64,000 bases of DNA, taken from contig NC_015177.1 in the NCBI RefSeq assembly GCF_000190735.1, positions 4,464,001 to 4,528,000 on the forward strand, given 5' to 3'. The position numbers were made by a program, and so were the translations under genes. The notes beneath the pieces are model-generated. The model was not told the origin of the DNA. It saw only the letters and a list, made by a program, of their open reading frames with translations, and ran no database searches. The stretch comes from Pseudopedobacter saltans DSM 12145 (GTDB taxonomy: Bacteria; Bacteroidota; Bacteroidia; Sphingobacteriales; Sphingobacteriaceae). Positions 27,453 through 44,600 of the stretch are shown one piece after another (the first letter of the stretch is position 1; every line of letters starts with the position of its first letter).

Positions 27453-30206
27453 ATGAATTATAGAAGGAATTATTTGTTGGCTCTATTAATCGCATCTGCC
27501 TTGACAGGGAATGCGCAAACAAATGTGTGGCCTAATGTTACGAAGGAAATGAAGCCCTGGACCAGATGGTGGTGGATGGGAAGCGCAGTGGATGAAAAGA
27601 ATATTGCGGCATCATTAAAGCAGTATGAGCATGTTGGTTTTGGAGGTGTGGAAATTACGCCAATTTATGGAGCAAAAGGTTTTGAAAATAAGTACATACC
27701 TTTTTTATCTCCCCAATGGCTGCAGATGTTGAAATTTTCTGTAGACGAAGCAAAGGCAAAGGGTATGGGCGTAGATATGAACCTGGGAACAGGCTGGCCT
27801 TTTGGTGGCCCTCAGGTTACGGCCGATTATGCAGCTACGAAAATGATTGTGCAGCGTTACGCGCTAAAAAGGAAAGAGAAACTTGCCGAGAAAATAGTGG
27901 TTAAGGAAGCTAAACAAGCTGATGCAAGATTACAGGCATTGAGAGCGATAGCTCCTGATGGAAAACAAACGGATTTAATGCATTTTATTGCGGCTGATGG
28001 TACATTGAACTGGAGTCCGGAAACAGAAAATGCAGATATCATAGCTTTCTTTGCGGGTAAAACCCGGCAGGCTGTAAAAAGAGCGGCTCCAGGTGGAGAA
28101 GGCTATACGCTGGATCATTTGGATAAAAAATCTGTTGATGTTTATCTGGATCGTTTTAATCAGGCTTTTGCCGGTAAACAACCCGGTGTTAGAGCCTTTT
28201 TTAATGATAGTTATGAAGTTTATGGCGCAAACTGGACACCATTATTTTTTCAGGAATTTAAAAAGTTAAAAGGCTACAATCTGGAAGATCATTTGGTTGA
28301 GCTTACAGATAAGAGCGTACAAAATGAACGTGTTGCTCGTGTAAAGTCCGATTACAGAGAAGTGATGAGCCAATTGCTGCAGCATAATTTTTTGGATGAG
28401 TTTACCGGATTCGCACACAAATACAATGCTTTGTCAAAAAATCAGGCACATGGTTCGCCGGGTAACCTGATAGATTTATATGCTGCAACTGATATTGCAG
28501 AGTGTGAAACATTTGGATCTAGTTTCTTTCCTATCCCGGGCTTGAGACGAGATAAGGAAGATGTTAGAAATGTAGATCCGGATCCAATGATGTTTAAGTT
28601 TGCGACATCGGCAACCCATACCCATGGTAAAAAATACACCTCTTCGGAAACTTTTACCTGGTTAACCGAACATTTTAAGACTTCTTTATCTCAGGCAAAA
28701 CCCGAAGTTGAGCAACTGTTTTTATCAGGTGTGAATCATGTGTTTTATCATGGTACTACCTATTCTCCTGAGGAAGCAGGATATCCGGGGTGGTTATTCT
28801 ATGCATCGGTAAATTTTGTGCCCAGCAATTCGTTTTGGCCGCATTTAAAAGGTTTGAACGAATATATTACTCGGGTTCAGTCTGTATTGCAGTCGACCAA
28901 AGCGGATAATGAAATATTGATGTACTGGCCTATTTACGATGTTTGGAATAATCCTAAGGGCTTAGATATGGCGCTTAAGGTTCATGATGTAGATGAGTGG
29001 TTGCATCCGACGGCATTTTATAAGCAGTCATTAATGTTATCGAACAAAGGCTATTCTTTTGATTTTGTTACCGATAATATATTGAGTAATGCTAAGGTTG
29101 TTGACGGTAATATCAGTACCAATAGCAATGCTACAGCTTATAAAACATTGCTGATTCCCGAAAGTGATCTGATGTCGGAGACAACCCTGGAAAGTATTAT
29201 TAGTTTGGCAAAAAATGGTGCTAAGATTATATTCCAGTCTTTGCCTAAAGATGTTCCGGGGCTGGCAGATTTAGAAACGAGAAGAGCAAAATTTAAACAA
29301 TTGATAACCTCCCTTGACTTTAAATCGGAAGGTGGGCTGAAGAGATACCGTATAGGTAAAGGGGAAATTATTTTATCTCGGGATTTTGTTCCGGCGCTTT
29401 CTTCCATAGTAGTTAACCGAGAGGAATTGACAGATAAGGGACTGAAATTTACAAGACGAGTAGAAAATGGGAATGTATATTATTACATAGTGAATCATTC
29501 TAAAGACGATTTTAACGGATTTGTAAAGTTGAATGTACAGGGAAACCAGGTGGTTTTGATGGATCCTGAGCAAGGTGATGCAGGTGAGGCTGAAGTGAAT
29601 GGCGCACAGGTTCGTCTCCAGATAAAGTCGGGACAGGCATTTATTGTAAAAGTTGCCAAAGAGAAATCAGCTCTTAACAAATGGCGTTATTTAGGACAGG
29701 AACTAGCTGCAACTAAAATTGAAACGCCATGGAATCTCAGTTTTGCCAATGGCGGACCTGAATTGCCGGCAGCCAGAAAACTGACGACCTTAAAGTCATG
29801 GACGGAATTTGGTGACGAGAAAGCTAATAGGTTCTCAGGCTCTGGAATTTATGAGACTACTTTTAATTTCAGTCCAAAATCTCAGAATGAGTATGTTCTT
29901 GATTTAGGTAAGGTAGCTGAAAGTGCCCGGGTTTGGGTTAACGGAACCGAGGTTGGCATTGTTTGGGGAATACCGTTCGAGGTTAGAATAGGTAAGTATC
30001 TGAAAAAAGGTAAAAACACACTGAAAATAGAAGTTAATAATCTGATGGCAAATAGGATTAAGGATCTGGATGAAAAAGGGATTGAATGGAGAAACTATCA
30101 TGAAATCAATTTTGTCAATATTGACTATAAGGCTTTCAATGCGAAAGATTGGAAGTTAATGCCTTCTGGTTTGTTGGGTCCGGTTTCTATTAAAGCTTAT
30201 CAATGA
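27453..30206 (+). CDS. GH106 alpha-L-rhamnosidase
   Basis: The 917-aa exported enzyme has signal peptide MNYRRNYLLALLIASALTGNAQ. GH106 motifs are visible from the N-terminus: WTRWWWMGSAVDEKNI, FGGVEITPIYG, MGVDMNLGTGWPFGGP, FFNDSYEVYG, then SSETFTWLTEHF, NHVFYHGTTYSP, and a C-terminal beta-sandwich (ARVWVNGTEVGIVWGIPFEV cut here at 20 residues). The enzyme removes non-reducing rhamnose from RG-I oligosaccharides after GH105 has exposed it. It starts 13 bases after rhaM and is the last gene of the pectin cluster, followed by a terminator-like hairpin. Length and domain order are normal. Confidence 0.94.
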   Translation: MNYRRNYLLALLIASALTGNAQTNVWPNVTKEMKPWTRWWWMGSAVDEKNIAASLKQYEHVGFGGVEITPIYGAKGFENKYIPFLSPQWLQMLKFSVDEAKAKGMGVDMNLGTGWPFGGPQVTADYAATKMIVQRYALKRKEKLAEKIVVKEAKQADARLQALRAIAPDGKQTDLMHFIAADGTLNWSPETENADIIAFFAGKTRQAVKRAAPGGEGYTLDHLDKKSVDVYLDRFNQAFAGKQPGVRAFFNDSYEVYGANWTPLFFQEFKKLKGYNLEDHLVELTDKSVQNERVARVKSDYREVMSQLLQHNFLDEFTGFAHKYNALSKNQAHGSPGNLIDLYAATDIAECETFGSSFFPIPGLRRDKEDVRNVDPDPMMFKFATSATHTHGKKYTSSETFTWLTEHFKTSLSQAKPEVEQLFLSGVNHVFYHGTTYSPEEAGYPGWLFYASVNFVPSNSFWPHLKGLNEYITRVQSVLQSTKADNEILMYWPIYDVWNNPKGLDMALKVHDVDEWLHPTAFYKQSLMLSNKGYSFDFVTDNILSNAKVVDGNISTNSNATAYKTLLIPESDLMSETTLESIISLAKNGAKIIFQSLPKDVPGLADLETRRAKFKQLITSLDFKSEGGLKRYRIGKGEIILSRDFVPALSSIVVNREELTDKGLKFTRRVENGNVYYYIVNHSKDDFNGFVKLNVQGNQVVLMDPEQGDAGEAEVNGAQVRLQIKSGQAFIVKVAKEKSALNKWRYLGQELAATKIETPWNLSFANGGPELPAARKLTTLKSWTEFGDEKANRFSGSGIYETTFNFSPKSQNEYVLDLGKVAESARVWVNGTEVGIVWGIPFEVRIGKYLKKGKNTLKIEVNNLMANRIKDLDEKGIEWRNYHEINFVNIDYKAFNAKDWKLMPSGLLGPVSIKAYQ

Positions 30207-30257
30207 TTGTAAGTGTCTGAATCATTAAAAGTTAAGTGATTTTTGGAAACCTTAATG

Positions 30258-30297
30258 TCCTCGAAAAGTTAGAGACTTTTTGGGGATATTTTTATTT
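30258..30297 (+). terminator. Candidate terminator of the pectin operon
   Basis: TCCTCGAAAAGT (30,258-30,269) can pair with ACTTTTTGGGGA (30,275-30,286) with two weak pairs and a 5-base loop, followed by TATTTTTATTT. It lies 52 bases after the GH106 stop. Confidence 0.5.
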
Positions 30298-30791
30298 GGA
30301 GCTAAAATATATTCAATTCATATCAAGCTTTAAAAGTTTGTAGGTGTTGATGTGTTTTTAGAGTTGCCCAATTTTTAGCCTTTTTAGATAGGGACTTGTT
30401 AAATAAATTTACTTTCGGAATTTTCGTGGTCGAAAAAGCCTTAAACAAGAATTATCTTGCTGTCTTTTCCCCTGTTTCAGGATTTGTTCGGGAAACAGGG
30501 GAATTCACTGTTCGCATTGTTCACAGGCTGTCTACTACAGGTGGATTGGATTATAATCAGGGGTTTTTAAAAATGTTGCTAAGATTTTGATCAGTTAAGT
30601 GGTTTCCTAATAGGGTGATCTATACCCCTCATCCGCCCTTTGGGCACCTTCTCCCTCATGGAGAAGGGGTAATGCATTTTTAAAATTAACTTTAGACATT
30701 AAACTCATGTTCATTAGTCCAGGTATCTTGGACTTAAAGAATAAATTAGATTGTAGAAGGAAGAGGTAGGCACTTGCGCCAAAAGTAGATT
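30298..30791. repeat. Gene-free stretch with two palindromic repeats
   Basis: No credible gene is seen between the GH106 terminator and the convergent NACHT gene. Two structures stand out. TTCCCCTGTTTC (30,467-30,478) pairs perfectly with GAAACAGGGGAA (30,492-30,503) around a 13-base loop. A compound palindrome at 30,623-30,671 contains GCCC-TTT-GGGC and CCTTCTCC-CTCAT-GGAGAAGG, inside outer arms TACCCCT/AGGGGTA. The second resembles a dispersed intergenic repeat seen in many bacterial genomes. These could block read-through between the convergent genes. Confidence 0.6.
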
Positions 30792-33700
30792 TTAGTTGAC
30801 TAACTTACTGATTTGGTTAATATCCAGGTAATTGGAGTCGAAATCTCTGAATTTCTCTAACGCTAACAGTCTGTACCAGTGAATATCGCGATACCTCTTA
30901 TACTTAGAGCTTAAATGATTTGATTTTTCAATTAGGAAATCATTTACGAGGATTAAATCTTCCTCACTTTTTTCTGCCAGACTCAAGATCCAGTTTCGAA
31001 CGATACCTTGCCCTGATTCAGTCCAATGGATTACTTTTTGAGCATCATCCACAATGAAATAGCAGATTCCATCAATTTGGGCTAAAATTTGTCTTGTATC
31101 TAATTTTTTAAAGCTGATTTCTCCAAGGTTTCTATTTGAAATTCGTTTATGGATTTCTAAATAAGAAACTAAAAATGTTAGACCTTCTATTTCACCAATA
31201 TTAATTAATGTATGGGCAATTTCGAATTTTCTCTCCTCTTTCGTGTCATCTCTATATAAAGCTATTTTTAAAATAGGGGCAATTTCTGCGGAGAATGAAT
31301 CTCCAATTTTTTTAGCCATATAAATAAAACAATAGGCATTATAGTTTTTAATATACTTAATTAAAGGGATAAGATCTGATACAGTTCCACCTAATTCTAT
31401 ATATACTTCCAATATATCATTAATACTATATGAAGTTGAAGTATATTTATTCTCAAAAAATAGTTTGGTCAAAATGTCATAAATAATGTCTTTTGAATCA
31501 TAAATTTTTAAATGTCGACATAAACCAATATGATTCTCTAATACTCCCATATCAGAAATGCCTAATTTTATATTATCCAAGATACTTTGTTTAAGTAATT
31601 CTATATTCTTATTTGATATTTTCTCCAAAATAGTTTCAGATAACGAATAGGTGTTGTTTAGTGAATGATGTTCAAAATTCTTAATACCGCCATTGTCAGC
31701 ACAGATCATTTTAATTAAAATTTCTTCAGGTGTATCAAATTCAAACTTCGAGAATATTTTTGCTATTTTAACCTCAAGAGTTTTGTGCCAATGTTCTATT
31801 TCTCCATTTTCGCTGATCTCTATAGAATATGTGCTTTCAAATATGCATATGGGTAGTTTTTTATAATAATATTCTTTAACAATTTCATAAAGTGGGATAT
31901 TAGATTGGATAAAGTCAGTGCTATACTTTCCGAGTATTTTTAAAACTTGAAACCATTCAAAGTCCATCTTTTCAAGCTGTTGTAGGGCTAATTTTTTTTC
32001 TATACTATCCCAAGGTTGTCTATCTTTTAGAAAATGATAAATAATTAACGAGTTAGCCTTTATTTTAGTTGGAGAAGCGTTATAATCAATATATAATTCA
32101 TTTTTGGAAATTATATCACTGCCAAATGCTTTAAAATATTTAATAATCCCCTTTTTAAATGATCCTTTATTAAGGATATATGATAAATCATTTTGATCTA
32201 TCAATCTCGAATATTTCTCATATTCATCGTGGATAGGATTCCATTTTGGTAGGAAGTGGCTTTCAGTGGTAGCTTTACATGCAGAGAAGAATTTATTAGC
32301 AATATCTTTATTCCCGTAATGATCAGTCGCAACATAAATTGACCAAAGTTTATCTAGCGAAATATTTCCTTCTTCATATTCATTAAATATAAAATCGAAA
32401 CAATCTTCAGTCAATAAATATGCAAAATTCCAAAAATCTAATCTTTTGATATCTGGGAATAAAATTTTTAAGGCTAAAGAGTTTGAATTTGTCTCGTTGA
32501 AGAAATTCGATAATTCTTCATAATCACTTTTAGTGAATTCTCTCCCAATTTTTTTGATTAGGTTTAAAAGTGGATAAATAATAGTAATATCCGATTTGTA
32601 AATCTTTACTAGATTTTCATTAAGTGTTGTAAGAAATAATCCCTTATTTATGGATCTTTCAAAAAACTCGAAATGTCCTGTTTGATTTAGTGAAATTAGT
32701 AATTTCTTTGCGTTAACAGTATTTTTGACTGATGCCAAAAGCATTTCTAAAAAATAATAAGAACCATTATGATCGATTTCTTGATTATGTCTAATTAAAA
32801 CAGGAATGCCTTCCAAAGCGTAGTCATAAAACTCATCGATAAGTTTTAGCTTTAATATATTCTGATAAACCCCGTCTCTAAACTCGTGTTTTGAATTGAG
32901 TGAGCTTTGAGTTAGTTTATAAACAAAATCTTTAGTAGCAAGATTAAATTCTGCTGATAACTCAAGGAGTTGATTTGCATAAAAATCATCTAATGTATTA
33001 AACACTTCCGAAAAAATCATCTTTTTTAAATTTTCCTTCTGTGTTTCTGATAATTCTACATTTCTTAAAACTCTGGTAAAAACAGTCTTGATTGGTGTGG
33101 GGAGTTCTTGTTTGATCAGCTCTATACAGTGGTCTTTGGCTTTGGGTTGAGAATTGATAAAAGAGGCAATAACTCTGTCATTTATTAGTTGTAACCGATT
33201 ATTGTAGATGTTTAGTTTTTCAACAAGTAGATCTAAAAAAGTTATCATTTGGTCAGATGAGAACTTTGTTCCTTCCGTCTTAAATATAATTTCAATATTA
33301 TCCTGTTTGATGAATTCTATAAGTGGTTTGTACAATGAACCTTTTTCGTCTATCAATGAAAACAATGAAGTTATCGTCTGTAACCATTTCGTTTTTATTT
33401 TCTTGATTTGAGTACCATTGGTAGACAAATTAATAATATCTTTAAAAGGCAGATTAATTAGATATTGAGCAGCAAGATGCTCTTGGTATAAGGCGTTTGT
33501 GAAACTCCAATAGTTGTTTTTAAAGTTGACGATAGAACTATTCTGCAATAGTAATATCTCCTTGTCGTCAAATAGAAGTTGTATTGTTTCATCTATGAAT
33601 GAATTAGTGCCTGCAAGCTGTAATGCGAAAGCTAATTTTTGTATTGAATTATTATATTTTACACTTTGTCTCTTAAGAAGCTTGCCGTCTATATTTCTTC

Positions 33701-34931
33701 TGGTATTTTGAAGTGTAGTGTCGATAAAGCTATCTAGTAAGGAGATTTTATTTTCGGGTATTTGATTAGAGTTTTCTTTATAGCTTTTAACTAATTGAAT
33801 AAGATAAAAAGGACTAAACAGAAAATCATAAATACCCGCATTGTAAATTTTTTTATAAAAATGGTCAATATCAGAACCCAATTGTTGAACTAAATACTTA
33901 TGGATAGAGTGTTCATTTAAAGGCCTTAACTCGAAAATCTCAAAATCTCGTAGTTCATTTTCAATTTCATAATGATCAAAAAACAGCCTTCGACAACAAA
34001 TAATTAAGCTTATGTTGGGGTTTTCCATTGCAAAAGCCTTGATATATTTGACCTGACTGAGAAATTTTTCTGTAGGTACTTCATCCAGGCCATCTAAACC
34101 AATTATGATATCTTTGGCTGGAATGGTTTTCCAATTAGGGTAATTAACTTGTAAGCATCGGTCAATCTCACTTACATTTAATTCTTTAAGATCAATTAAG
34201 ATTGGATAATATGAAAGGGGAGAGGCAGATAGATTATGCAGAACCTTTTGCATTTCTATGCTTTTCCCTGAATGAGCTTCGCCTAATATTGCCATCCTTT
34301 TGGCCGAAAATCTATTTTCAACAAAAAGTTTTTCAAGTTCTATTGCTGTGAAATCGTTATCCCATATAGAAAGTAAAGGTTGATTATATCTTTCAATTTG
34401 TCGGTCAATGTAATCTTTTGGTTCAGAAATGGGTCTGTAGGATATGTTCTTAGAGTGACAAAGTTCATCTGCATCTAATTTTCCAAAGTATTTCTCAACT
34501 ACAGTATAGTACTTTTGTAATTGAGTATCAAGATAGTTCTTATCCCAGAATTGCAAATCGATATTGAAATCGTTTTTTAACTTTTTAACAAGTTCTGATT
34601 GTCGTTTTTTACTTTTTGAATTTTGGAGATCCGCAGTAGTAATTAGAATAAAATCACTACACTCATCAACTAAACTATTGTATGTAAATTGGTTAACAAT
34701 GTTTGTGAGATCACCTGGAAATAGCTTCTTCTCACACTTACATTGAATAAAAGTATATTTGCCACCATTAGGCTTTAAACTGTGTAAGTCAATGCCCTTT
34801 TGATCATTACCTTGTTTTAAATAATTCTCAAACCTTAGTTCTGGTAATTCATATTGAGTAAAATGAATACAGAGGTCTTGGAATACATCCCAAGAAATTT
34901 TATTCCAGTCTAATCCTTTTTTATTAATCAT
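30792..34931 (-). CDS. NACHT-type STAND NTPase with N-terminal PD-(D/E)XK nuclease domain (putative antiphage defence)
   Basis: A 1379-aa cytoplasmic protein with no signal peptide. Residues ~5-150 look like an Mrr/restriction endonuclease-like domain: KGIDLHSL with D48, then FIQCKCEKK with Q63 and K65, and later DFILITTADLQ. A NACHT NTPase follows: Walker A GEAHSGKS (217-224) and Walker B IIIGLDGLDEV with D280, D283 and E284, the DGLDE form typical of NACHT. A CCRR sensor-like segment and an ELRPLNEHSIHKYL winged region come next. The remaining ~850 residues are helical and Lys/Ile/Asn rich, as expected of a repeat-type sensor. The layout matches Avs/bNACHT antiphage proteins, which oligomerise on sensing a phage protein and activate the N-terminal effector. 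It is more AT-rich than the flanking genes, in keeping with transfer. Trigger and nuclease activity are inferred. Confidence 0.85.
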   Translation of the reverse strand: MINKKGLDWNKISWDVFQDLCIHFTQYELPELRFENYLKQGNDQKGIDLHSLKPNGGKYTFIQCKCEKKLFPGDLTNIVNQFTYNSLVDECSDFILITTADLQNSKSKKRQSELVKKLKNDFNIDLQFWDKNYLDTQLQKYYTVVEKYFGKLDADELCHSKNISYRPISEPKDYIDRQIERYNQPLLSIWDNDFTAIELEKLFVENRFSAKRMAILGEAHSGKSIEMQKVLHNLSASPLSYYPILIDLKELNVSEIDRCLQVNYPNWKTIPAKDIIIGLDGLDEVPTEKFLSQVKYIKAFAMENPNISLIICCRRLFFDHYEIENELRDFEIFELRPLNEHSIHKYLVQQLGSDIDHFYKKIYNAGIYDFLFSPFYLIQLVKSYKENSNQIPENKISLLDSFIDTTLQNTRRNIDGKLLKRQSVKYNNSIQKLAFALQLAGTNSFIDETIQLLFDDKEILLLQNSSIVNFKNNYWSFTNALYQEHLAAQYLINLPFKDIINLSTNGTQIKKIKTKWLQTITSLFSLIDEKGSLYKPLIEFIKQDNIEIIFKTEGTKFSSDQMITFLDLLVEKLNIYNNRLQLINDRVIASFINSQPKAKDHCIELIKQELPTPIKTVFTRVLRNVELSETQKENLKKMIFSEVFNTLDDFYANQLLELSAEFNLATKDFVYKLTQSSLNSKHEFRDGVYQNILKLKLIDEFYDYALEGIPVLIRHNQEIDHNGSYYFLEMLLASVKNTVNAKKLLISLNQTGHFEFFERSINKGLFLTTLNENLVKIYKSDITIIYPLLNLIKKIGREFTKSDYEELSNFFNETNSNSLALKILFPDIKRLDFWNFAYLLTEDCFDFIFNEYEEGNISLDKLWSIYVATDHYGNKDIANKFFSACKATTESHFLPKWNPIHDEYEKYSRLIDQNDLSYILNKGSFKKGIIKYFKAFGSDIISKNELYIDYNASPTKIKANSLIIYHFLKDRQPWDSIEKKLALQQLEKMDFEWFQVLKILGKYSTDFIQSNIPLYEIVKEYYYKKLPICIFESTYSIEISENGEIEHWHKTLEVKIAKIFSKFEFDTPEEILIKMICADNGGIKNFEHHSLNNTYSLSETILEKISNKNIELLKQSILDNIKLGISDMGVLENHIGLCRHLKIYDSKDIIYDILTKLFFENKYTSTSYSINDILEVYIELGGTVSDLIPLIKYIKNYNAYCFIYMAKKIGDSFSAEIAPILKIALYRDDTKEERKFEIAHTLINIGEIEGLTFLVSYLEIHKRISNRNLGEISFKKLDTRQILAQIDGICYFIVDDAQKVIHWTESGQGIVRNWILSLAEKSEEDLILVNDFLIEKSNHLSSKYKRYRDIHWYRLLALEKFRDFDSNYLDINQISKLVN

Positions 34932-34944
34932 TACTTTTCTCTCT

Positions 34945-34952
34945 CAAATATA
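34945..34952 (-). promoter_or_regulatory. -7 promoter element of the NACHT gene
   Basis: On the minus strand TATATTTG is a perfect match to the Bacteroidetes TAnnTTTG element and ends 13 bases before the ATG. Transcription starting about 7 bases on would leave a leader of only a few bases. No clear -33 TTTG is seen. Confidence 0.45.
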
Positions 34953-35412
34953 CATTCGTATTCCTTACTTTCGTCTGCTCTAATTTCAATAATATCAGGC
35001 ATCCTTTTTGGATTAATTGAATGGAATTGCAGAAAATATAATTTTTGGAATGAAGAAATTTTCTGACTTCATGAATTTTTCTACAGCTTTAGAACATCCC
35101 TTTGTATTAAATAGTATTTTATGACATATACTAAAATATTAAGGTAATTAGAGAAGCACTCGGTTTATTCCAAAAAGATTTTCACCGTTATCAGATTTAT
35201 TTAGAGATCGCTAATCAAAAAAGAAGTAGAACGTATTGGTACAGAATCAAGCATACTAGTTGTTTTAAAGATAACCCGTTGTTGCTAAAAGATTAATCTA
35301 ATGCTAAGGAGTTATCTTAAACCAGAACAGAGACCATATCAAAAGCTTCGACCATTCGAAAGAGATAGCATATTACACCTTATCTTTTGATACAGTCCCA
35401 TGTTTTAAAATA
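34953..35412. other. Gene-poor gap between NACHT and Crp/Fnr genes
   Basis: This AT-rich stretch holds no intact gene. It contains a probable decayed HTH gene fragment (35,121-35,296, listed separately) and a distant 9-bp inverted repeat TATCAAAAG/CTTTTGATA (35,337-35,345 and 35,384-35,392). Confidence 0.5.
35121..35296 (+). pseudogene. Decayed XRE-type HTH regulator fragment
   Basis: An ATG at 35,121 opens MTYTKILR and then meets a stop; shifting frame at that point continues as VIREALGLFQKDFHRYQIYLE and on to a TAA at 35,294. The spliced reading (YTKILR, IREALGL.QKDF..Y) resembles the first helices of XRE-family regulators of the type that start with TKILRKIREALGLSQ. Both the frameshift and the early loss of similarity argue that it is a remnant. 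It sits just upstream of the NACHT gene, facing away from it. Confidence 0.3.
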
Positions 35413-35997
35413 CTATCCTGACCTCTTAAGCAATACCTCCTTCTTAATGCGTGATAAATGTATGGCGCTAATATTTAGTAAATCCGCGATATAATTCTGT
35501 CGAATACAAAGATCAATCTGCGGATATCTATCTTTAAGTAGTAAATACCGTTGTTTGGCAACTCCCTTTCCGGAAATGGCCAGTTGTTTTCTGTAGAAGT
35601 CATTTTCGGCAAGCAGAGCCTTAAAAATTACCTGGGCATAGTCATTACTGAAATGAAGTAAAGCGTTCCATTCATGAAATGATAAGCTTACAATTTCTGC
35701 GTCATAGATGCACTCGATTCCAAGTGCAGATGAATCTTGTGTTAAGTAGCTTTCTGCTATATATAGGTGTTTATGAGGACCGACGATATCAATCGTTTTA
35801 GAAGTATCTGCGGTGCTTTCAAAAATTCTGAAATATCCGCTCTTTACAAAAATGAGATGCCGGCATATCTCCCCGGGATTTAGCAGAACCTTACTTCTGG
35901 ATATGTTTTCCAATTGTATCCGATGTAACAATGATTCCTCTGCATCGGGAGGTAAATAGCCAAACTCTCTCAAATAGTTTACATAATGTTTATGCAT
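35413..35997 (-). CDS. Crp/Fnr-family transcriptional regulator
   Basis: The 194-aa protein has the cyclic-nucleotide-binding-like jelly roll (about residues 25-120: SRSKVLLNPGEICRHLIFVKSG, shown in part) and a C-terminal winged helix (YIADLLNISAIHLSRIKKE, about 168-186). The CNB pocket lacks the canonical RxS cAMP-binding loop, as in most Bacteroidetes members, so the ligand is unknown. Such proteins in Pedobacter often act as local stress or redox regulators. It is transcribed alone, divergently from the HTH gene at 36,216, with 218 bases between them. Confidence 0.9.
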   Translation of the reverse strand: MHKHYVNYLREFGYLPPDAEESLLHRIQLENISRSKVLLNPGEICRHLIFVKSGYFRIFESTADTSKTIDIVGPHKHLYIAESYLTQDSSALGIECIYDAEIVSLSFHEWNALLHFSNDYAQVIFKALLAENDFYRKQLAISGKGVAKQRYLLLKDRYPQIDLCIRQNYIADLLNISAIHLSRIKKEVLLKRSG

Positions 35998-36215
35998 GCT
36001 CGTGTATTTATTAATTTCTGTAATGAAAGAAAATGATTTAAGCTTTTATATCTTGCAGTTAACCGGTTTACTAAAACACAATATTAATTATTTGTTTTGA
36101 AGCTATGAAGTTTTTTAACTCTTTATTTTTTAAACAATACAGAAATTGATACGAATGAATTGTGTGTTTACCACAAATTTTAGTTGAATAGATTGTTAAC
36201 TGATAATTTAAATTT

Positions 36216-36515
36216 ATGACGACAACATTTGAAAACAGGAAGATGTACTATCTTTTCTTAGGCTCTTTAAGCAGAATAGAGGAGCTATTAAATACCTTAT
36301 TATGTATGTTGGTAGAAACAAAAGAAAATCTGAACCAAAAGACTAGATTGCAGGACTTTAAAGAAAAATGCTTGGATAAGCAAGAGGTGCTTCAGCTACT
36401 GAAAATTTCTGGGCGTACATTATACAATCTGCGTAAGAGCAACAAATTATCTGAAAAAGTGATTGGTGGTAAAATGTACTTTAACCTATCGGACGTAGAG
36501 AAATTAATGAAATAG
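36216..36515 (+). CDS. Excisionase-type helix-turn-helix protein
   Basis: The 99-aa protein has an amphipathic N-terminal helix (residues 10-35) and a C-terminal HTH_17/MerR-like winged helix (LDKQEVLQLLKISGRTLYNL, then SNKLSEKVIGGKMYFNLSDVEKLM). This architecture is common in Bacteroidetes mobile elements as DNA-binding accessory or excisionase-like proteins. There is no integrase nearby, so it may be an element remnant or a small regulator of the genes that follow. Confidence 0.8.
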   Translation: MTTTFENRKMYYLFLGSLSRIEELLNTLLCMLVETKENLNQKTRLQDFKEKCLDKQEVLQLLKISGRTLYNLRKSNKLSEKVIGGKMYFNLSDVEKLMK

Positions 36516-36833
36516 ATGTACTTTTTCAAAATTTCAATAGTTCTCCAAAAGTAGCTTTTAAGCAAGAAATGCCCTGTATGCTTTTACTCTGCTTCGGGTC
36601 TTCTTCGCGAAACAGGGGGTATTTCCCGAAGAAGTCTCGAAGCGGTCCCGAAGAAAAGTGCGAAAAAGTGGCAAACTGTAACAAAGCCAGGCAGGTAGTG
36701 GCAAAATGCAGCAAGGGCGGTTCCCAGGCTTTTTTTTGAGTTTTTTGCCTTCTACATTTGCCTTCAGACAAAAGACCGATAGCGCTATCACAGAAGCTTT
36801 TGCACATGGTTAAACCCTTTAAATTTTTAAGAT
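36516..36833. other. Structured non-coding stretch upstream of the DUF6266 gene
   Basis: No gene is credible here; minus-strand frames lack homology that I recognise. The stretch is visibly richer in G/C than its surroundings and repetitive. An imperfect 18-bp inverted repeat (36,592-36,609 with 36,625-36,642, 15 of 18 pairs) surrounds AAACAGGGGG. CCCGAAGAA occurs at 36,625 and 36,647. AGTGGCAAA occurs at 36,667 and 36,697 within longer similar arms. A run of eight T follows GGGCGGTTCCCAGGC at about 36,715. It may be a folded leader, small RNA or recombination region for the genes downstream. Confidence 0.45.
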
Positions 36834-37478
36834 ATGGGTAAATATTCACAGGGCATTCTGGGTGCCTTTTCGGGAAAGGTGGGAACAGTAGTAGGTGCGT
36901 CATGGCGCGGTATTAAATACATGCGAAGTCTGGCTGCTAAACGTGGCAATAGCAGGGCTAGTGAAAAGCAATTGGAACAACAGGCCCGTTTTGCGCTGAT
37001 TGCCGGTTTCCTAAGACCTGTCAAGCCATTGCTGGAGCTAGGCTTCAAGAACTATGCAATCGGGAGAACGGGTTACAACAGTGCTTCCAGCTATAACCTG
37101 AAAAATGCATTGACCGGACAAATTCCAAATCTGCAAATAGACTATAGTATGGTACTGTTAAGCCGGGGCGATCTGGTTGGCGCAAAATCACTATCGGTAA
37201 GCTCAGCAACTCCAGCGGAACTGAACATCGTCTGGCAGGACAATAGCGGACAAGCCAAGGCTAAACCGGAAGATCAATTGATTGTGGCGGTCTTTTTACC
37301 GGCTTTGGCAGAAGCTACCTATATGATTGGAGCAGCCGAAAGGCAGAACGAATCATTTGTATATAATCTTCCGGCAGAGTACAGCGGCGAAACTGCGGAA
37401 GTATACATCAGCTGGACTTCGGTAGATGAAAAGGAAGTAGCGACAAGTGTTCACGCGGGAAGTGTGATAATTGCGTAA
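36834..37478 (+). CDS. DUF6266-family protein
   Basis: The 214-aa protein begins MGKYSQGILGAFSGKVGTVV and continues SWRGIKYMRSL, the signature of DUF6266, a family that I know from Pedobacter and relatives, where several copies per genome occur. There is no signal peptide; the first ~90 residues look helical/basic and the rest beta-rich, with an Ig-like ending (AEVYISWTSVDEKEVATSVH). Function is unknown. A perfect 11-bp hairpin follows directly, so it is transcribed mostly alone although a possible lysis module follows. The structured non-coding stretch in front is noteworthy. Confidence 0.85.
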   Translation: MGKYSQGILGAFSGKVGTVVGASWRGIKYMRSLAAKRGNSRASEKQLEQQARFALIAGFLRPVKPLLELGFKNYAIGRTGYNSASSYNLKNALTGQIPNLQIDYSMVLLSRGDLVGAKSLSVSSATPAELNIVWQDNSGQAKAKPEDQLIVAVFLPALAEATYMIGAAERQNESFVYNLPAEYSGETAEVYISWTSVDEKEVATSVHAGSVIIA

Positions 37479-37488
37479 AGCCACAAAC

Positions 37489-37519
37489 ATTGGAGAGGGA
37501 GAAACCCTCTCCAATTTCT
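37489..37519 (+). terminator. Strong hairpin after the DUF6266 gene
   Basis: ATTGGAGAGGG (37,489-37,499) pairs perfectly with CCCTCTCCAAT (37,505-37,515) around AGAAA, followed by TTTCT. The T tract is weak, so this may terminate only partly. Confidence 0.65.
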
Positions 37520-37560
37520 AGTCAACTAATTAAATAAATTAAAATACTAAATAGAATATT

Positions 37561-37995
37561 ATGCAAGATAGCATTGTGAATTATACCAATTTAATGAAAT
37601 TATTCCTAAGGGAAGCAAAGAAGTTAATAGCAGTGCTTCCGAAAGGAAGTATCAGGGAAACCAATGCCGCTTTGAAGAGATTTTTGGAAACTGAAAGCTT
37701 AAGACGCTGGTACAACGCCTTGTATATGCATTTGCTTAAAATCACCGAATTCGAATCACTCTTGAACAAAATAAGCAGCCGTCTGCAATTTAAAGGGCTG
37801 AATAAAAAGGGCTTGAACAATGATGAGGTTAAAAACCTACGTTACGAGCTGTTATCATTATTCCTTGACTGTTGCGGGAAATACTCTGAGGCAGAACCAT
37901 ATGCCGATACCAGCGCAGATTATCGGATTCGTCTATACAAGTTGCGCCGTAGACCCGAAGCACCCGTAGGACAGTGGCAAAGCCTGGATGACTAG
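37561..37995 (+). CDS. Hypothetical helical cytoplasmic protein
   Basis: I do not recognise this 144-aa protein. It is highly charged and looks mostly helical, with Arg/Lys-rich segments (KLRRRPEAP near the end) and no signal peptide or membrane helix. The start at ATG 37,561 follows a long A-rich stretch. It lies between the DUF6266 gene and a run of small genes for a 3-TM protein, an amidase and a lipoprotein, with a 41-base gap to the next, so it is likely to be part of that module. In phage-type lysis modules such a gene might be a structural or regulatory protein, but nothing in the sequence proves that. Confidence 0.7.
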   Translation: MQDSIVNYTNLMKLFLREAKKLIAVLPKGSIRETNAALKRFLETESLRRWYNALYMHLLKITEFESLLNKISSRLQFKGLNKKGLNNDEVKNLRYELLSLFLDCCGKYSEAEPYADTSADYRIRLYKLRRRPEAPVGQWQSLDD

Positions 37996-38036
37996 TACCC
38001 ATTACCAATAAACTAACAACTAATGAACTAAATAAC

Positions 38037-38429
38037 ATGATTACAAAATTCATAAACAATAAAAGCATAGCGTATGCATTACCGAAACCATTCTATTTTT
38101 ACAGTCATCCTGTATTTAAGCAATTGCTAGGGCTGATAATATTAAGTCTGGTCTTACCTTATTGGATATATAGGTTTGACAGCACTTCAGCATTGCCCGA
38201 TCCGGGTATAATTTATCTGTTTCTATTGGCATTGCTGTTTTTTATCACCTTACTGATATTGATCTGGAAACTCTTCAACAGCAGTTGGGAACGACTGGGC
38301 TTACCGGATATCACTTATATGGTTAAACATTTTAAAGAATTGGATTTATGGCAGCAAATTATATTATACTGGCTTTCTTTTGCTTTATTACTCCTGGCAG
38401 CAATTGGCGGACTAACAGCAATTTGCTAA
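38037..38429 (+). CDS. Small 3-TM membrane protein, holin-like
   Basis: The 130-aa product has three hydrophobic segments: about 28-47 (LLGLIILSLVLPYWIY), 58-80 (YLFLLALLFFITLLILIWKLF) and 107-129 (ILYWLSFALLLLAAIGGLTA). The N-terminus and loops are short and polar. No family is recognised. Its 3' end overlaps the amidase gene by 82 bases in another frame. The combination of size, topology and neighbour matches class I holins, which let an endolysin reach the wall, but many small membrane proteins look like this. Confidence 0.7.
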   Translation: MITKFINNKSIAYALPKPFYFYSHPVFKQLLGLIILSLVLPYWIYRFDSTSALPDPGIIYLFLLALLFFITLLILIWKLFNSSWERLGLPDITYMVKHFKELDLWQQIILYWLSFALLLLAAIGGLTAIC

Positions 38430-38896
38430 AAATACAGGAGCAAGCCAACCGGGAAAAAATAGTAGCCATTGCCCGGGGCGAACTGGGTGTACGTGAGATT
38501 ACCGGCAACAACGACGGTGAAAGGGTAGAAGAATACCTCGCAATAACCGGCTTAAAGAAAGGACAGCCCTGGTGTGCTTCCTTTATGAGCTGGGTGTTCA
38601 AAAAAGCAGGATATCAGGAACCCTGTACGGCCTGGTCACCAGCTTTGTTTGTCAATAAGGTAATTACTAAAGCCATTAAACCGGGAAATGTATTAGGTGT
38701 CTGGTTTCCAGATAAAAAGAGGATAGCCCATGCGGGGCTGGTGGAACAGCAGCAGGGCGATTGGATTGTCAGTATAGAAGGCAATACAAATGTATTTGGT
38801 AGTCGTGAAGGAGACGGAGTGTACCGCAAGCGAAGACATATCAAAACAATTTATCGTTATGCGGATTGGTTGGCTAAAAAGGAGAGCTCGCCATGA
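38348..38896 (+). CDS. CHAP/TIGR02594-like cell-wall amidase (endolysin-like)
   Basis: The 182-aa frame contains a Cys-His hydrolase: IARGELGVREITG, then GQPWCASFMSWVFKKAGY with C76 as likely nucleophile, and IAHAGLVEQQ with H128, ending IKTIYRYADW. This is the CHAP/NlpC-like layout of Bacteroidetes endolysins and wall amidases. The N-terminus is uncertain: residues 1-25 overlap the holin-like gene and include a weak hydrophobic stretch (YIILAFFCFI) that might export the enzyme, while an alternative TTG start near 38,424 would give the bare domain. The next gene overlaps its stop by 4 bases (ATGA). Confidence 0.85.
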   Translation: MAANYIILAFFCFITPGSNWRTNSNLLKIQEQANREKIVAIARGELGVREITGNNDGERVEEYLAITGLKKGQPWCASFMSWVFKKAGYQEPCTAWSPALFVNKVITKAIKPGNVLGVWFPDKKRIAHAGLVEQQQGDWIVSIEGNTNVFGSREGDGVYRKRRHIKTIYRYADWLAKKESSP

Positions 38897-39378
38897 TTAT
38901 GAGATCCGGAATGGTAGTCTTGCTGATAATTTTGACTTCATGTAATGCTTTTAAACATAGAATTCATTCCTTGAGTAAAGAGAATATTCGTTTTGAAGAG
39001 CAAAGTAACGTATTAAGGGAACATCTACGAATAGCAAAGGAGCGAGAGGATAAGGAATTGGAGCAACAACTAGTTACACAATTGGAAATTATAGCCGACA
39101 GTCTTTGGTATTGGCATCCGGATAGCGGCTTATTGCCCAGACCAGGAATGTTGAAAGTGCGATACAAGTTGAAGGGATTAAATAGGCAGCGCCAGAAAAA
39201 CAGCAAAACCGGAATAGAAGCAATACTTTTAAAAGATTTGATTGTAAAGAAGAACCAGATTAATAGTGAACACAAAGTGAATACTAGAGTTAAGGAAACA
39301 AAGATTGATTATTGGGTTTTGGTGATATTAGTTGTTGCTTTGTTCCTACTATATAGGAAAGGATATTCTAAAAAATGA
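38893..39378 (+). CDS. Lipoprotein with coiled coil and C-terminal TM helix (unimolecular spanin-like)
   Basis: The 161-aa protein begins with a lipoprotein signal (MVVLLIILTSC, lipobox Cys17), continues with a long charged helix (about 25-75, ENIRFEEQSNVLREHLRIAK) and a basic middle, and ends with a single membrane helix (139-156, YWVLVILVVALFLLY) plus a short basic tail. A protein tethered to the outer membrane by lipid and to the inner membrane by a C-terminal helix has the topology of the u-spanin of phage T1, which fuses the membranes in the last step of lysis. It follows the amidase gene with a 4-base overlap. No sequence family is recognised, so the assignment is by architecture and context. 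Confidence 0.75.
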   Translation: MIMRSGMVVLLIILTSCNAFKHRIHSLSKENIRFEEQSNVLREHLRIAKEREDKELEQQLVTQLEIIADSLWYWHPDSGLLPRPGMLKVRYKLKGLNRQRQKNSKTGIEAILLKDLIVKKNQINSEHKVNTRVKETKIDYWVLVILVVALFLLYRKGYSKK

Positions 39379-39394
39379 ATCTTTAAAATATTTA

Positions 39395-39420
39395 TTAAAT
39401 CGGTTTAGTTTTTATATATT
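39395..39420 (+). promoter_or_regulatory. Operator-promoter upstream of GH97
   Basis: TTAAATCGGTTTAG (39,395-39,408) is an imperfect palindrome with the A/T-flanked central CG of LacI-family operators. GTTTTTAT follows, then TATATTAG (39,413-39,420), one base from the TAnnTTTG -7 element. The same arrangement, with the same spacing, occurs at 41,596 and 51,109. Confidence 0.6.
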
Positions 39421-39469
39421 AGCATTTGTTATAGACTTAAATATTATAAGAATTCATAATTTAAATTAA

Positions 39470-41464
39470 ATGATGAAAAGAATAAACCTGCTGGGCTGTT
39501 TTTTGTATGCTATATTTTCTTTAAACCTACATGCACAGACAATTGTAGAATCTACACGTTCAAGTTTAGTGTCTCCTAATGGAAAATACAAATTTGAAGT
39601 ATATCAGAAAGAAATTTCCGGCAAATCCAGACAATTATATTATACCCTTACTTATAACGGAAAAGCAGTTATTGAAGAGTCTGAACTGGGGGTGCTCATT
39701 AAAAACCAATTGTTTGAATCGGCATTGGGAATACCCAATGATACTGCTAAAATATGGGGAGCAAACCTAAGCTTTACAGGTAAAAAAACGCATACTTTCA
39801 ATGAAACCTGGAAACCTATATATGGCGAGCGAAGTATCATACGTAACCATTATAATGAGTTAACGCTGAATTTCTTGAAGGGCGAGGAGAAAACCGGAGG
39901 TATCGATGAAGGTTACGATAAACGGCGCTTTTATATGATGGATTTCATCGTGAGAGCCTATGACGAGGGGGTCGCTTTCCGTTATTTCTTCCCCGAGGCA
40001 ACCAATGGTCTATTCCTGCACATCACCGGAGAGCAAACACAGTTTACCTTCCCCGAAAAAACAATGGCTTATTATGAACGCTGGGCACAGGGACCTTACG
40101 AATTGCAGTCTTTAAAAAATTGGAAAGATGAAAGTGAAAGACCATTGACATTAAAGTTGAAAAATGGGTTAACAGTAGCTTTAGCCGAAGCAGAAATGAT
40201 AGACTATTCCCGTATGAAGTTTCGTCTGGATGAAACGAAGCAAAATACCTTGCAGGCTTCTTTATATAGCTCTGTAGATGTGATAACTCCTTACACTACG
40301 CCGTGGCGGGTGATTATGGTAGCAGAAAAAGCCACAGAGCTGATAGAGAATAACGATATTATCCTGAATCTGAATCCTGCGAATAAAATAAAAAATACCT
40401 CATGGATAAAGCCTGGTAAGGTTATTCGTGTGGCGAAGTTAACACAGGAAGATGCTATTAAATGTATTGATTTTGCAGCTGAACGGGGTTTGCAGTATAT
40501 TCATATTGATGCAGGTTGGTATGGTCCGGAAATGAAAATGGAATCAGATGCTACTTCTGTCGCAGAGAACAGAAACTTTGATATTCCGGCGCTGACTGCT
40601 TATGCAGCAAAGAAAGGAATAGGCTTATTAGTATATGTTAATCAACGGGCACTGGTACAACAGTTGGATGAATTATTGCCACTTTATAAAAAATGGGGAA
40701 TTAAAGGGATAAAATTTGGTTTTGTACAAATAGGAAACCAGCATTGGTCAACCTGGTTACACGATGCCATTAAAAAATGTGCACAATATGAAATGTTAGT
40801 GGACATACATGATGAATATAGGCCTACAGGATTCAGCCGTACATATCCGAATCTGATGACACAGGAAGGAGTACGGGGAAATGAAGAAATGCCTGACGCA
40901 ATACATAATACCATTCTGCCATTTACACGTTTTCTAGCGGGAGCAGCAGATTATACAATATGCTATTATAATAATAGGATAAAAACTACCCATGCTCACC
41001 AGCTAGCCATGGCTGCAGTATATTACAGTCCTTTACAGTTTTTATATTGGTATGACCATCCTTCGGCCTATCAAGGCGAACCGGAAATAGAATTCTTTGA
41101 TAAAGTAAAAACGGTTTGGGACGATACTAAAGCAGTAGCGGGGGATGTAGGCGAATATGTTACCATAGCTCGCCGAAGTGGAAACGACTGGTTTTTAGGT
41201 TCATTGAATAATAATGATGCCCGGAATGTGACTACACCCTTGACCTTTTTAGAGGCTGGTAAAAAATATGTAGCCCATATCTATACAGATGATGAAAATA
41301 TAAATACCCGCACAAAAGTTAAAGTAACGCGGTTAATAGTAGATAAAACTGTCCAGCTACAATTTACCTTAAAAGCAAGCGGAGGTAGCGCGATTCATCT
41401 TGTTCCGGCTACAAAAAAAGATCAGAAAAGCTATAGGTCATATAAGAGAAATACAGTTTTATAG
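39470..41464 (+). CDS. GH97-family alpha-glycosidase
   Basis: The 664-aa exported protein (signal peptide to about residue 23, NLHAQ) has the GH97 N-terminal sandwich (VSPNGKYKFEVY, GVAFRYFFPE) and barrel (YIHIDAGWYG, GIGLLVYVNQRA, VDIHDEYRPTGFSRTYPNLMTQEGVRG in parts). E466 in TQEGVRGNE is at the acid/base region. The stretch GIKGIKFGFVQ has G417 where retaining GH97 alpha-galactosidases have the nucleophile Asp (VDF), so the mechanism may differ, or be inverting. An operator-promoter lies directly upstream. It is the first gene of the second glycan locus and probably attacks alpha-galactosyl or alpha-glucosyl units of that substrate. Confidence 0.92.
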   Translation: MMKRINLLGCFLYAIFSLNLHAQTIVESTRSSLVSPNGKYKFEVYQKEISGKSRQLYYTLTYNGKAVIEESELGVLIKNQLFESALGIPNDTAKIWGANLSFTGKKTHTFNETWKPIYGERSIIRNHYNELTLNFLKGEEKTGGIDEGYDKRRFYMMDFIVRAYDEGVAFRYFFPEATNGLFLHITGEQTQFTFPEKTMAYYERWAQGPYELQSLKNWKDESERPLTLKLKNGLTVALAEAEMIDYSRMKFRLDETKQNTLQASLYSSVDVITPYTTPWRVIMVAEKATELIENNDIILNLNPANKIKNTSWIKPGKVIRVAKLTQEDAIKCIDFAAERGLQYIHIDAGWYGPEMKMESDATSVAENRNFDIPALTAYAAKKGIGLLVYVNQRALVQQLDELLPLYKKWGIKGIKFGFVQIGNQHWSTWLHDAIKKCAQYEMLVDIHDEYRPTGFSRTYPNLMTQEGVRGNEEMPDAIHNTILPFTRFLAGAADYTICYYNNRIKTTHAHQLAMAAVYYSPLQFLYWYDHPSAYQGEPEIEFFDKVKTVWDDTKAVAGDVGEYVTIARRSGNDWFLGSLNNNDARNVTTPLTFLEAGKKYVAHIYTDDENINTRTKVKVTRLIVDKTVQLQFTLKASGGSAIHLVPATKKDQKSYRSYKRNTVL

Positions 41465-41595
41465 TACTTATAGCTTTAATTAAAAATTGCAATAATTGTG
41501 ATTTTGACATTAATTTAATAAAGATGTGTGATTGTTAGCAAAATGGTAATTTTTCTTTGATTCTATTGAATTAATAGAAAAAGTGCAAAAAATCA

Positions 41596-41625
41596 ACTAA
41601 ATCGGTTTAGTTTTTATTAAGTTTG
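41596..41625 (+). promoter_or_regulatory. Operator-promoter upstream of susC-like gene
   Basis: ACTAAATCGGTTTAGT (41,596-41,611) is a 16-bp palindrome with one mismatched pair. It is followed by TTTTAT and TAAGTTTG (41,618-41,625), a perfect -7 element. It lies 63 bases before the SusC start in a 224-base gap that holds nothing else obvious. Confidence 0.65.
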
Positions 41626-41688
41626 ATTAAGAAAATAAATAGTTGAAGAATTAATATTCTAAGAACCAATAAATCTAAGTAATAAATT

Positions 41689-44600
41689 ATGAGAATCATT
41701 TTACGAAAAGGTGTCAGCTTGGCTTCGCTTATGCTGTTGGTATTCGGGTGTGTTTTGCCAGCATCCTATGCCCAACAGGTTGTAAGAGGTAAAATAGTTG
41801 ATGCCCAGGACAAACAGCCTATTATTGGCGCGGCGGTAAAGATTAAAGACTCTGCAGCCGGAACGCAAACAGATGCTGATGGCAATTTTCAATTAAATGC
41901 AGCAACAGGTGCTGTGTTAGAGATAAGTTACATCGGTTATCTTAAAAAAGAAATTACCGCAAATTTCTTTGATATCATGCAAATAGCATTAGAGCTGGAT
42001 AATAAACAGTTGGAAGAGATTGTAGTTGTGGGATATGGAACTCAAAAGAAAGAAACTTTGACAGGTTCTGTGACAAAAGTCGATGCAAAAGCTTTTCAAG
42101 ACAAAGGCCCTTTAGCGAGTCCTATACAAGCAATGCAAGGACAAGTGCCTGGAGTTATTATAACACGTTCATCAGGAGCACCGGGGGATGAATCTTGGTC
42201 AATGAGTTTAAGAGGGGCTATATCTAAGGCAACCGCAGAACCTCTGGTTATTATTGATGGTGTTGTGTATGATAGTTTTAGAGAGTTGAGATTGTTAAAT
42301 CCGTCTGATATTGATAATATATCTTTTCTTAAAGATGCGTCGGCAGCGATTTATGGTTCACGGGCAGCAGGAGGGGTAGTATTGGTAACAACTAAGAAGG
42401 CAAATGCAGGTAAGGCAGTAGTAGAATTTAATACTTTATATACGAGGAAGGAAACCGGTTTGCAACCACGTTTAATGAGTATGGATGAATGGGCTGCCGG
42501 AGTGGTAGAAGCGAGAACAAATGATGGTTATGGAGCTGATGATGTTTGGATACGCTATGCAAATTTAGCTCTGGCAAATAAAGGTGGATATATAGATGCA
42601 AGAAATTTAGCTAATGCACCTATTCCGGGAGCTTTTTTAGACGTGAAAGATTTTGTTTTCTTAGATAATAACTGGACAGATATTTTATGGGGCGGAGCCA
42701 ATTCGACACAAAACGATTTGAGCATTTCTGGAAGAGGTGAAAAAGGCGGTTATAGACTTTCTTTTGGTTATTTATATGATGGCGGGACTTTACGTTATGG
42801 TAATAACAATAATAATAGATATAATATTCGGTTGAATAGCGACTTTAAGGTAAGCGAACGCTTTAGTATAGAATCTGTTATTTCTTACAATGTGCAAGAT
42901 CAGGTAATGCCTACGATGATTGGTAATGTTCTTGGTCAGGGATATCCCCAGCCAGGTTTTCCAGTGTCAACTTTAACGGGTAAGCCATATGCTTGGGGTG
43001 GGCAATATACACCAAATTGGTTTGCTGAGGCAGGAGGAGATAACCGTCTTAAAGTTGGGTCTACTAACATAAGTGAAACTTTCCGTTTTAAACTAATAGA
43101 AGGTCTGCAGTTAGTGAGTAATCTTGGATATAATACCAGTACGGCAATTAGAGATATGAAGCAAAATCCTATAGAGTGGTATAACTACAAAGGAGATTTG
43201 CTTGTTCAAAATAATCCTACACAACAGAATAGCTATTATCAAAAAAGTACGGCTAAGACTGACTTTTATTCAGGATCAATTTTTCTTCAGTTCAACAGGC
43301 ATTTCAATCAAACTCATAATATCGGAGCTACGTTGGGTGGACAATACGAATTTAAGAATTATGATTACTATTTAACAAAAGTAACAGATATCAATAGTTC
43401 CCTATCTGCTATTAATGGAACAGGAACGATCACAATGGATAAGGCCAGAGAGCAATATGCTTTGGGGGCGTATTTCGGACGATTAACTTATGACTATAAA
43501 GCTAAATACCTGTTTGAAGCAAATGGTCGTTATGACGCTTCATCAAGATTTGATAGGATAAATCGTTGGAATTTATTCTACGGTTTTTCAGGAGGTTGGA
43601 GAATATCTGAAGAAGACTTGGTAAAAGATTTTGGTGTATTTGATGAGTTAAAGTTAAGGGCTTCATACGGGGTAGTTGGAAATCAGGCTGGAGTCGCACT
43701 TTATGATGGTCAGCAATTATATAATCAAGCGACTGGGACTGGGGCTTATTTAGGATCAGCAAAAGTAAGCTACGTGACAACTAATGGAAGATTAGTCTCA
43801 TATGATCGTACTTGGGAAAGAATTCAGAACTATAATTTAGCGCTGGATTTTGCCCTGTTCAAGAACAAGTTGTCGGGTACTTTTGAACGTTTTATTAAAA
43901 GGAATAATAATATGTTCCTTCAGGGGCAATATCCTGCAATGTTGGGAGCAAATGCTCCTGAAATAAATATGGGAAAATTTAAGTCTAATGGATGGGATGC
44001 TATTTTAAATTGGTCAGATAAAATAGGTGAATTTAACTATAACTTAGGTGGTGTATTTACTTTTGCAGAGAACAAAATTGTTGATTACGGAGGACAAAAC
44101 TTTGCAACATCAGGGGGACTAATTCGAGAGATACAAAGCTATGCTTTGAACTCTATTTTCGGTTTAAAATATGCTGGTCGTATTCAGACGGAAGAACAAA
44201 GACAGGAATATCTTGATAAATATAATGTAGGCAATGGCATCGGTTTAAGTAGTGCCATTAGAGTGGGTGATAATATGTATGAAGATATAAGTGGAGATGG
44301 AATCTTAAATTATGATGATCTGGTTTACTTAGGAACTGATGATCCAAAGATATCTTATTCGTTTAACGCCGGTGTGGGGTATAAAGGATTTGATTTCTCT
44401 GTAATATTTCAAGGAGCAGGTCAACGAGTGACTTTTAGGGATGATGTGAACTGGAGACAACCATTTCGTTCTGTATATCTGAATACAACGAATCAATCCG
44501 TGGGAAATCATTGGACGCCAGACAACCCCAATGCACATTTTCCTAAGTACTCTACGAATGGAACTATAAATACTTATAACTATCAGGCATCATCATGGTC

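Follow-up and report, generated by a model that had tools for sequence, protein, structure and literature searches.

A predicted nuclease-NACHT protein of Pseudopedobacter saltans as a putative single-gene antiphage sensor, with a helical C-terminus common to proteins with other effectors

Among the bacterial NACHT proteins of known function, bNACHT25 and bNACHT32 (clade 6) are single proteins with an N-terminal PD-(D/E)XK domain and a central NACHT domain, and the former is reported to be their effector, a D48A mutant having lost defence (PMC12169576). Avs4 offers a second comparison, through the structure of the AVAST type 4 protein bound to the PhiV-1 portal (PDB 8dgf). The nearest named families are HyoA and EruA (NCBIfam NF058534 and NF058535), NACHT antiphage proteins that none of the papers listed by our literature search describes. 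In this paper we compare with these systems a gene of Pseudopedobacter saltans DSM 12145 that lies within a 64,000-nucleotide stretch of contig NC_015177.1 (positions 4,464,001 to 4,528,000; hereafter the window). We estimate a probability of about 0.8 that it encodes a single-gene antiphage sensor resembling the NOD-like receptors (NLRs) of animals, in which a C-terminal solenoid would bind an infection trigger and so switch on DNA cutting. An Avs/bNACHT-like architecture had been proposed in a preliminary description of the sequence, and our computations support it. We regard the protein as belonging to a known kind, and place the novelty in its sensor, which belongs to an unnamed family.

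Table 1. Features of the NACHT gene and of the open frames beside it, in window coordinates.
Feature	Residues	Coordinates	Strand	Basis
Whole gene, PD-(D/E)XK - NACHT - HEAT-like solenoid	1-1379	30792..34931	minus	1379-aa open reading frame with ATG start; relatives of matching length
Mrr-like PD-(D/E)XK nuclease domain (predicted)	1-155	34467..34931	minus	AlphaFold2; Pfam Mrr_cat (below cut-off)
Catalytic motif G46-I-D48 ... Q63-C-K65 (predicted)	46-65	34737..34796	minus	Invariance of G46, D48, Q63 and K65
NACHT NTPase with winged-helix part (predicted)	199-560	33252..34337	minus	Limits set by us from the model; Foldseek
Walker A, GEAHSGKS	217-224	34260..34283	minus	Sequence
Walker B, DGLDE	280-284	34080..34094	minus	Sequence
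Almost all-helical HEAT-like solenoid, presumed sensor	561-1379	30795..33251	minus	AlphaFold2; Foldseek; presence in relatives
Least conserved 25-residue segment	1033-1057	31761..31835	minus	Mean identity 0.14, several of 11 rows gapped
53-codon open stretch that lacks a start codon and lies between the NACHT and Crp-like genes		35135-35293		
194-aa cNMP-binding/Crp-like gene		35413		Ordinary-length open frame; similar in length to its relatives in the genus
99-aa HTH_17 gene		36216		Pfam E 1.2e-8; ordinary-length open frame

The gene is real and intact, more than chance would provide. It aligns end to end with 12 close relatives of 1362-1390 aa, all of which have D48, Q63 and K65 in common (for one of them, L010, the listed frame extends further upstream, and we cut it back to the corresponding start codon). 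In comparison with the nearest relative, which is 68% identical, the ratio of nonsynonymous to synonymous substitution rates (dN/dS; NG86) is about 0.08, to be read only qualitatively because dS has an overall value of 2.6 and reaches saturation in three of the six parts. The gene is present once in its own genome and is AT-rich, as had been observed before, with a GC content of 29.7% against 37.7% for the window.

The preliminary description had named D48, Q63-x-K65, a Walker A motif and DGLDE, and all four are found in the sequence where it had located them (Table 1). It had also called the N-terminus nuclease-like, and the predicted structure agrees. The AlphaFold2 model of residues 1-600 (mean predicted local distance difference test score, pLDDT, 84.4; predicted template modelling score, pTM, 0.71; 34 sequences), in which residues 1-130 have block pLDDT values of 68-95, contains a helix at 14-28, strands at 34-36, 49-51 and 58-65, a helix at 72-84 and a strand at 91-98, with a further helix and strand up to residue 129. 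The helix-strand-strand-strand-helix-strand order at 14-98 is the order of the PD-(D/E)XK core, and together with the D...(D/E/Q)xK motif it identifies the N-terminus as a predicted PD-(D/E)XK domain. G46, D48, Q63 and K65 are invariant in all 22 aligned nuclease-type rows, the window protein included (L010, a near-copy of L009, was left out). The aspartate that is essential in bNACHT25 and bNACHT32 is likewise D48, a likeness of architecture and position rather than one of directly compared sequences. Clade 6 proteins end in an NCH1 domain, and the window protein has no Pfam match of that name in a library whose NCH1 content is unverified. We infer that the domain cleaves DNA. The predicted fold, the invariant residues and the precedent of the bNACHT25/32 effector (PMC12169576) all argue for the antiphage sensor proposed above.

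The second module is the putative switch. Walker A, a Walker B of the D-G-x-D-E form and a NACHT fold by Foldseek point to a NACHT protein of the STAND class (signal transduction ATPases with numerous domains), in line with the NACHT core recognised earlier. G222, K223, D280, D283, R314, P374, F477 and E484 are invariant in 42 of 42 aligned rows. NLRP3 is the best Foldseek match of the model of residues 1-600 (E 3.0e-12; template modelling score, TM, 0.46 of the query), and NOD2 (E 2.6e-11) and NLRC4 are also among the best. Portal-bound Avs4 aligns over 629-637 columns with E-values of 2.0e-11 and 8.7e-12, the latter over 637 columns with a TM of 0.25 and a root-mean-square deviation of 22. 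The similarity to NLRP3, NLRC4 and Avs4 argues for an NLR-like sensor. The window protein has the NACHT and winged-helix fold in common with the animal NLRs, which carry leucine-rich repeats and PYD or CARD domains, and differs from them in its helical HEAT-like arm and its predicted nuclease.

The preliminary description had suggested a helical C-terminus, and the AlphaFold2 model of residues 550-1379 (pLDDT 88.0, pTM 0.68, 37 sequences) is indeed nearly all helix. Foldseek finds a weak likeness to HEAT and ARM proteins such as CAND1 and Kap121 (E 4e-4 to 7e-4, TM 0.19-0.26), and no Avs chain is among the best 50 of its 1011 matches. With a C-terminal sequence profile, designed alpha-repeat proteins are matched at the level of the whole sequence (best E 3.5e-8), with no single stretch significant alone. 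The C-terminus is the more variable part of the protein, with a mean identity in 11 close-clade rows of 0.29, compared with 0.36 for the nuclease and 0.35-0.42 for NACHT. The least conserved segment (Table 1) interrupts the helical arm with two short strands, at 1035-1039 and 1045-1049 (486-490 and 496-500 of the model), and is a candidate ligand contact. The next least conserved segments are at 883 (0.15), at 185 in the linker (0.16) and at 996 and 1152 (both 0.17).

To compare the composition of the family, we aligned 42 proteins. A profile made from residue 561 onwards of the 13-protein close clade, run on 1031 open reading frames of the relatives' loci, found 18 of the 29 other relatives (E 4e-45 to 1e-16) besides its own 12 rows. 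Rebuilt from 31 rows, the profile found 8 of the 11 remaining relatives and missed L085, L087 and L088; its matches include its own 31 rows, so that the independent counts are only the 18 of 29 and the 8 of 11. Since these profiles find most other relatives, the C-terminus is common to the family. The preliminary description had seen in it an uncharacterised sensor of no recognised family, which may detect a new phage trigger. No named family was found for it, yet it is no orphan, because proteins with other effectors have the same C-terminus.

The N-termini of the 39 matching rows comprise 21 Mrr-like, 8 caspase, 6 DUF4062, 2 LmuA-like, 1 Schlafen AlbA and 1 SMEK domain. We assigned these labels from the N-terminal sequences, and their support by Pfam and PADLOC models is partial: among 34 scanned members, caspase families match 7, which is the number of caspase rows scanned, whereas DUF4062 matches only 2 at E<=0.01 as against the 6 labelled from a common S-x-P-x-D-V motif and from length, and the LmuA models each match 1 member as against 2 labelled. 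For these 39 rows we built a tree by a quick search, with the N-terminus removed and six forks left open; on it the six labels need 5 changes, the minimum possible, and the division of Mrr-like from the rest needs 3. With L085, L087 and L088 added, the 42 rows carry seven labels and need 6 changes, again the minimum. As the changes are at the minimum, the labels track clades and are not freely shuffled; effectors have changed several times, mostly following clades, and the window gene's own clade of 13 proteins is Mrr-like throughout. That one NACHT and C-terminal body occurs with six different types of N-terminus also argues for the immune sensor proposed above. DUF4062 is reported in a preprint as a TIR-like NADase with antiphage function (PMC13174449).

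These observations suggest that NLR-like proteins of bacteria include a family that has no name as yet; no title or abstract opening listed by our literature search describes it. Its members with caspase or DUF4062 domains look like immune outputs of animals and of other defence systems, and with one body of switch and solenoid behind six kinds of N-terminal domain, a trigger found for one protein could explain many. On a bolder reading, which we hold to be less probable than not, the C-terminus would define a Bacteroidota HEAT-solenoid sensor family that reads a single class of infection signal outside Avs1-5 and the studied bNACHTs and passes it to interchangeable nucleases, caspases, TIR-like NADases and Schlafen domains, with residues 1033-1057 as the trigger contact.

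By analogy with Avs4 and bNACHT25/32, the protein should work as follows, the mechanism being modelled on reports of NACHT and Avs proteins whose function has been established (PMC12169576, PMC12931631). At rest, the C-terminal solenoid would keep the NACHT switch closed. During infection it would bind a protein brought in by the infection, or a host factor altered by it, whereupon NACHT would exchange its nucleotide and oligomerise. Oligomerisation would bring the N-terminal Mrr-like nucleases together, and these would cut phage and host DNA, so that the infection would be stopped by abortive infection.

The distribution of the gene is that of an accessory gene, with patchy presence and different sites within the genus. 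The window protein itself was matched in 7 of 200 related genomes and a four-row profile in 50 of 400 genomes of the order and 13 of 395 of the phylum, the own genome, partial matches and remnants being included in these counts. In the genus there are matches in 3 of 18 genomes, namely its own, that of the 68% identical relative (G005) and one with a distant relative (G006). Another genome of the genus, G001, keeps the rhamnose-type cluster to the left of the window gene in the same order, with nine genes at 57-80% identity, one at 31%, and the window genes 8694, 21680 and 24143 of that cluster without a listed match. After this cluster G001 continues with different genes, by eye including a lysyl-tRNA synthetase, and contains no match to the NACHT gene. 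Conservation of a single copy at the same site throughout the relatives, which the preliminary description had held to speak against defence, is thus not what we see. The site in G005 is a different one, where the relative adjoins groES-groEL (L002 5618-6811), probably by chance, though a requirement of bNACHT25 for the chaperone DnaJ is reported (PMC12169576). The patchy presence and the differing sites argue for an immune gene. Could the protein rather be a regulator of host stress or cell death, with a housekeeping role and no part in immunity? The position of the gene alone between glycan clusters would suit such a role, but the low counts in genus and order, the different sites, the different effectors on one body and the partial copies in some genomes make this a very improbable explanation.

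The partial copies belong to four loci (L093-L096), which were searched with three query proteins. L093 yielded the N-terminus only, and at L094 9481-10115 residues 1-82 almost directly adjoin residues 1248-1374, as if after an internal deletion. Since these loci hold only parts of family members, decay seems to happen in the family, and the window gene, being an AT-rich lone copy, might be taken for a relic that looks intact and does not function. With a full-length frame, catalytic and switch residues kept and a low dN/dS to the nearest relative (at a dS near saturation), we think there is very little chance of this.

In the phage collection 1 record was matched (residues 173-526) and in the viral contigs 3 loci, with matches confined to the NACHT region. 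Four plasmid records were matched, 3 of them from Rhodococcus and matching the N-terminus only, and a Bacteroides ovatus plasmid carries a relative whose C-terminus matches as well (E 1.4e-30). A first scan of genome contigs found no relative; a second found three loci, all known already from the genome search.

The neighbours of the relatives give a further indication of function. At 37 loci (L078, L085, L087 and L088 were not used) we took, on either side, the two closest frames with a length of 120 aa or more, dropping those of more than 1000 aa; of the 135 proteins in this set 131 were scanned, the four dropped being three large proteins and a fragment of a split family member. The control was 131 of 157 proteins from 20 stretches at hand-picked coordinates. 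At E<=1e-15, 191 PADLOC models matched the neighbours and 6 the control, a difference inflated by the many models that describe the same GajA and GajB proteins, the number of proteins being much smaller. GajA, GajB, AbiEi and DarG were each matched in 2 neighbour proteins, and the 3 PtuA matches (best 6.7e-19) may be cross-matches of GajA/GajB-type ATPases. The control was not empty, being matched by LmuA, mad3 and HerA models. GajA (E 4.3e-242) adjoins L009, and a homologue of it is present at L010 as well. A gene for a reverse transcriptase of the UG5-nitrilase type of defence-associated reverse transcriptases (L065 12549-15536; PADLOC E 9.8e-239) adjoins a close relative; it was among the dropped neighbours and was scanned separately with nine others chosen by hand, a set in which 2 of 10 match at E<=1e-30 and 8 have no match. 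Other neighbours are ordinary, for example GroEL and glycan enzymes. A 1382-aa protein (L069 2779-6924) that adjoins a DUF4062-type relative and is related to two adjacent frames in L058 has no PADLOC match at 1e-30. We rejected a conserved partner gene: the best cluster recurs in 4 of 39 loci (frames of at least 50 aa within 4 kb, BLASTP 1e-6). That no gene recurs in more than 4 of the 39 supports a single-gene system, as had been suggested, and with the defence neighbours of some relatives it argues for an antiphage role.

Two relatives with different effector labels, L070 (DUF4062) and L081 (LmuA-like), adjoin the same small cassette (L070 3237-6748, L081 5063-8221), presumably of mobilisation genes, whose HTH_17 gene resembles the window gene at 36216. 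The same cassette beside different effectors suggests that one type of element carries different family members. With another relative on the Bacteroides plasmid, competition between elements is possible, and the invaders met by the same switch and nuclease could be plasmids, conjugative elements or other mobile DNA instead of lytic phage, the architecture of nuclease and NACHT saying nothing about the invader. We regard this as improbable, as the Avs and bNACHT proteins described in PMC12169576 and PMC12931631 are reported to respond to phage, while nothing in our own results separates the two kinds of invader. We infer that phage is the target.

Several results weigh against an antiphage sensor of this design. 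PADLOC, a check proposed in the preliminary description, has 0 families matched by the window protein at E<=1; its library contains Avs models, and on this test an Avs type was rejected. At E<=0.1 Pfam gives no NACHT match for the window protein, with 15 of the 34 scanned members matching at E<=0.01. On the lone nuclease domain Mrr_cat reaches E 0.0018 and 18.8 bits against a cut-off of 21 (15 of 22 nuclease-type rows match at E<=0.05), and a profile of this domain found no nuclease in a sequence search of the PDB. The structural match to Avs4 has a TM of only 0.25-0.26, and Foldseek relates the C-terminus to generic solenoids and to no structure more specifically. HyoA (E 7.9e-9) and EruA (E 3.3e-4) match part of the NACHT region, and 19 and 23 of the 34 scanned members, the window protein included, at E<=0.001. 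An equivalog of either was rejected, since the scores lie far below the NCBIfam cut-offs, at 33.7 of 1200 and 18.9 of 1000 bits; the HyoA cut-off is exceeded in 0 of 101 genomes, with a weaker match in 8. The HyoA matches start at profile positions 36-41 at NACHT, and in the EruA profile it is position 68 that falls on residue 273; such early positions suggest profiles without an N-terminal domain of this size. Finally, two neighbours in the window were scanned with PADLOC and gave one weak match (mad1, E 2.7e-4, in the 99-aa HTH_17 gene).

The other neighbours of the window gene were judged by Pfam or by eye. The two glycan clusters around it were read by eye from translations, with one neighbour, a rhamnose mutarotase, confirmed by Pfam. 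The preliminary description had also seen a decayed helix-turn-helix (HTH) gene, which we could not confirm, and flanking repeats. The two HTH-type genes nearby are frames of ordinary length, and the 53-codon stretch, for which 60 genomes were searched and the 59 besides its own gave no match, may be a relic that nothing marks as a former HTH gene. The repeats are real to the extent of one 61-nt pair of 72% identity, at 30441 and 36558, the strongest found; it is weak and has no other good copy. Its left copy pairs with itself like a hairpin (76% over 37 nt), with no other genome match below E 2, and for these reasons we rejected a mobile element bounded by the pair. An RNA element nearby was also rejected, Rfam giving 0 matches at gathering score for 29800-41700. 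The 43 promoter-like sites compared with 31.1 (standard deviation 5.9) in shuffled sequences are not informative. To the right of the HTH_17 gene lies a cassette at 36834-39378, whose five genes have no tblastn match at 1e-5 in the relatives' loci; it consists of a DUF6266 gene (E 6.5e-57), two short genes, a CHAP-like peptidase gene (below cut-off) and another short gene.

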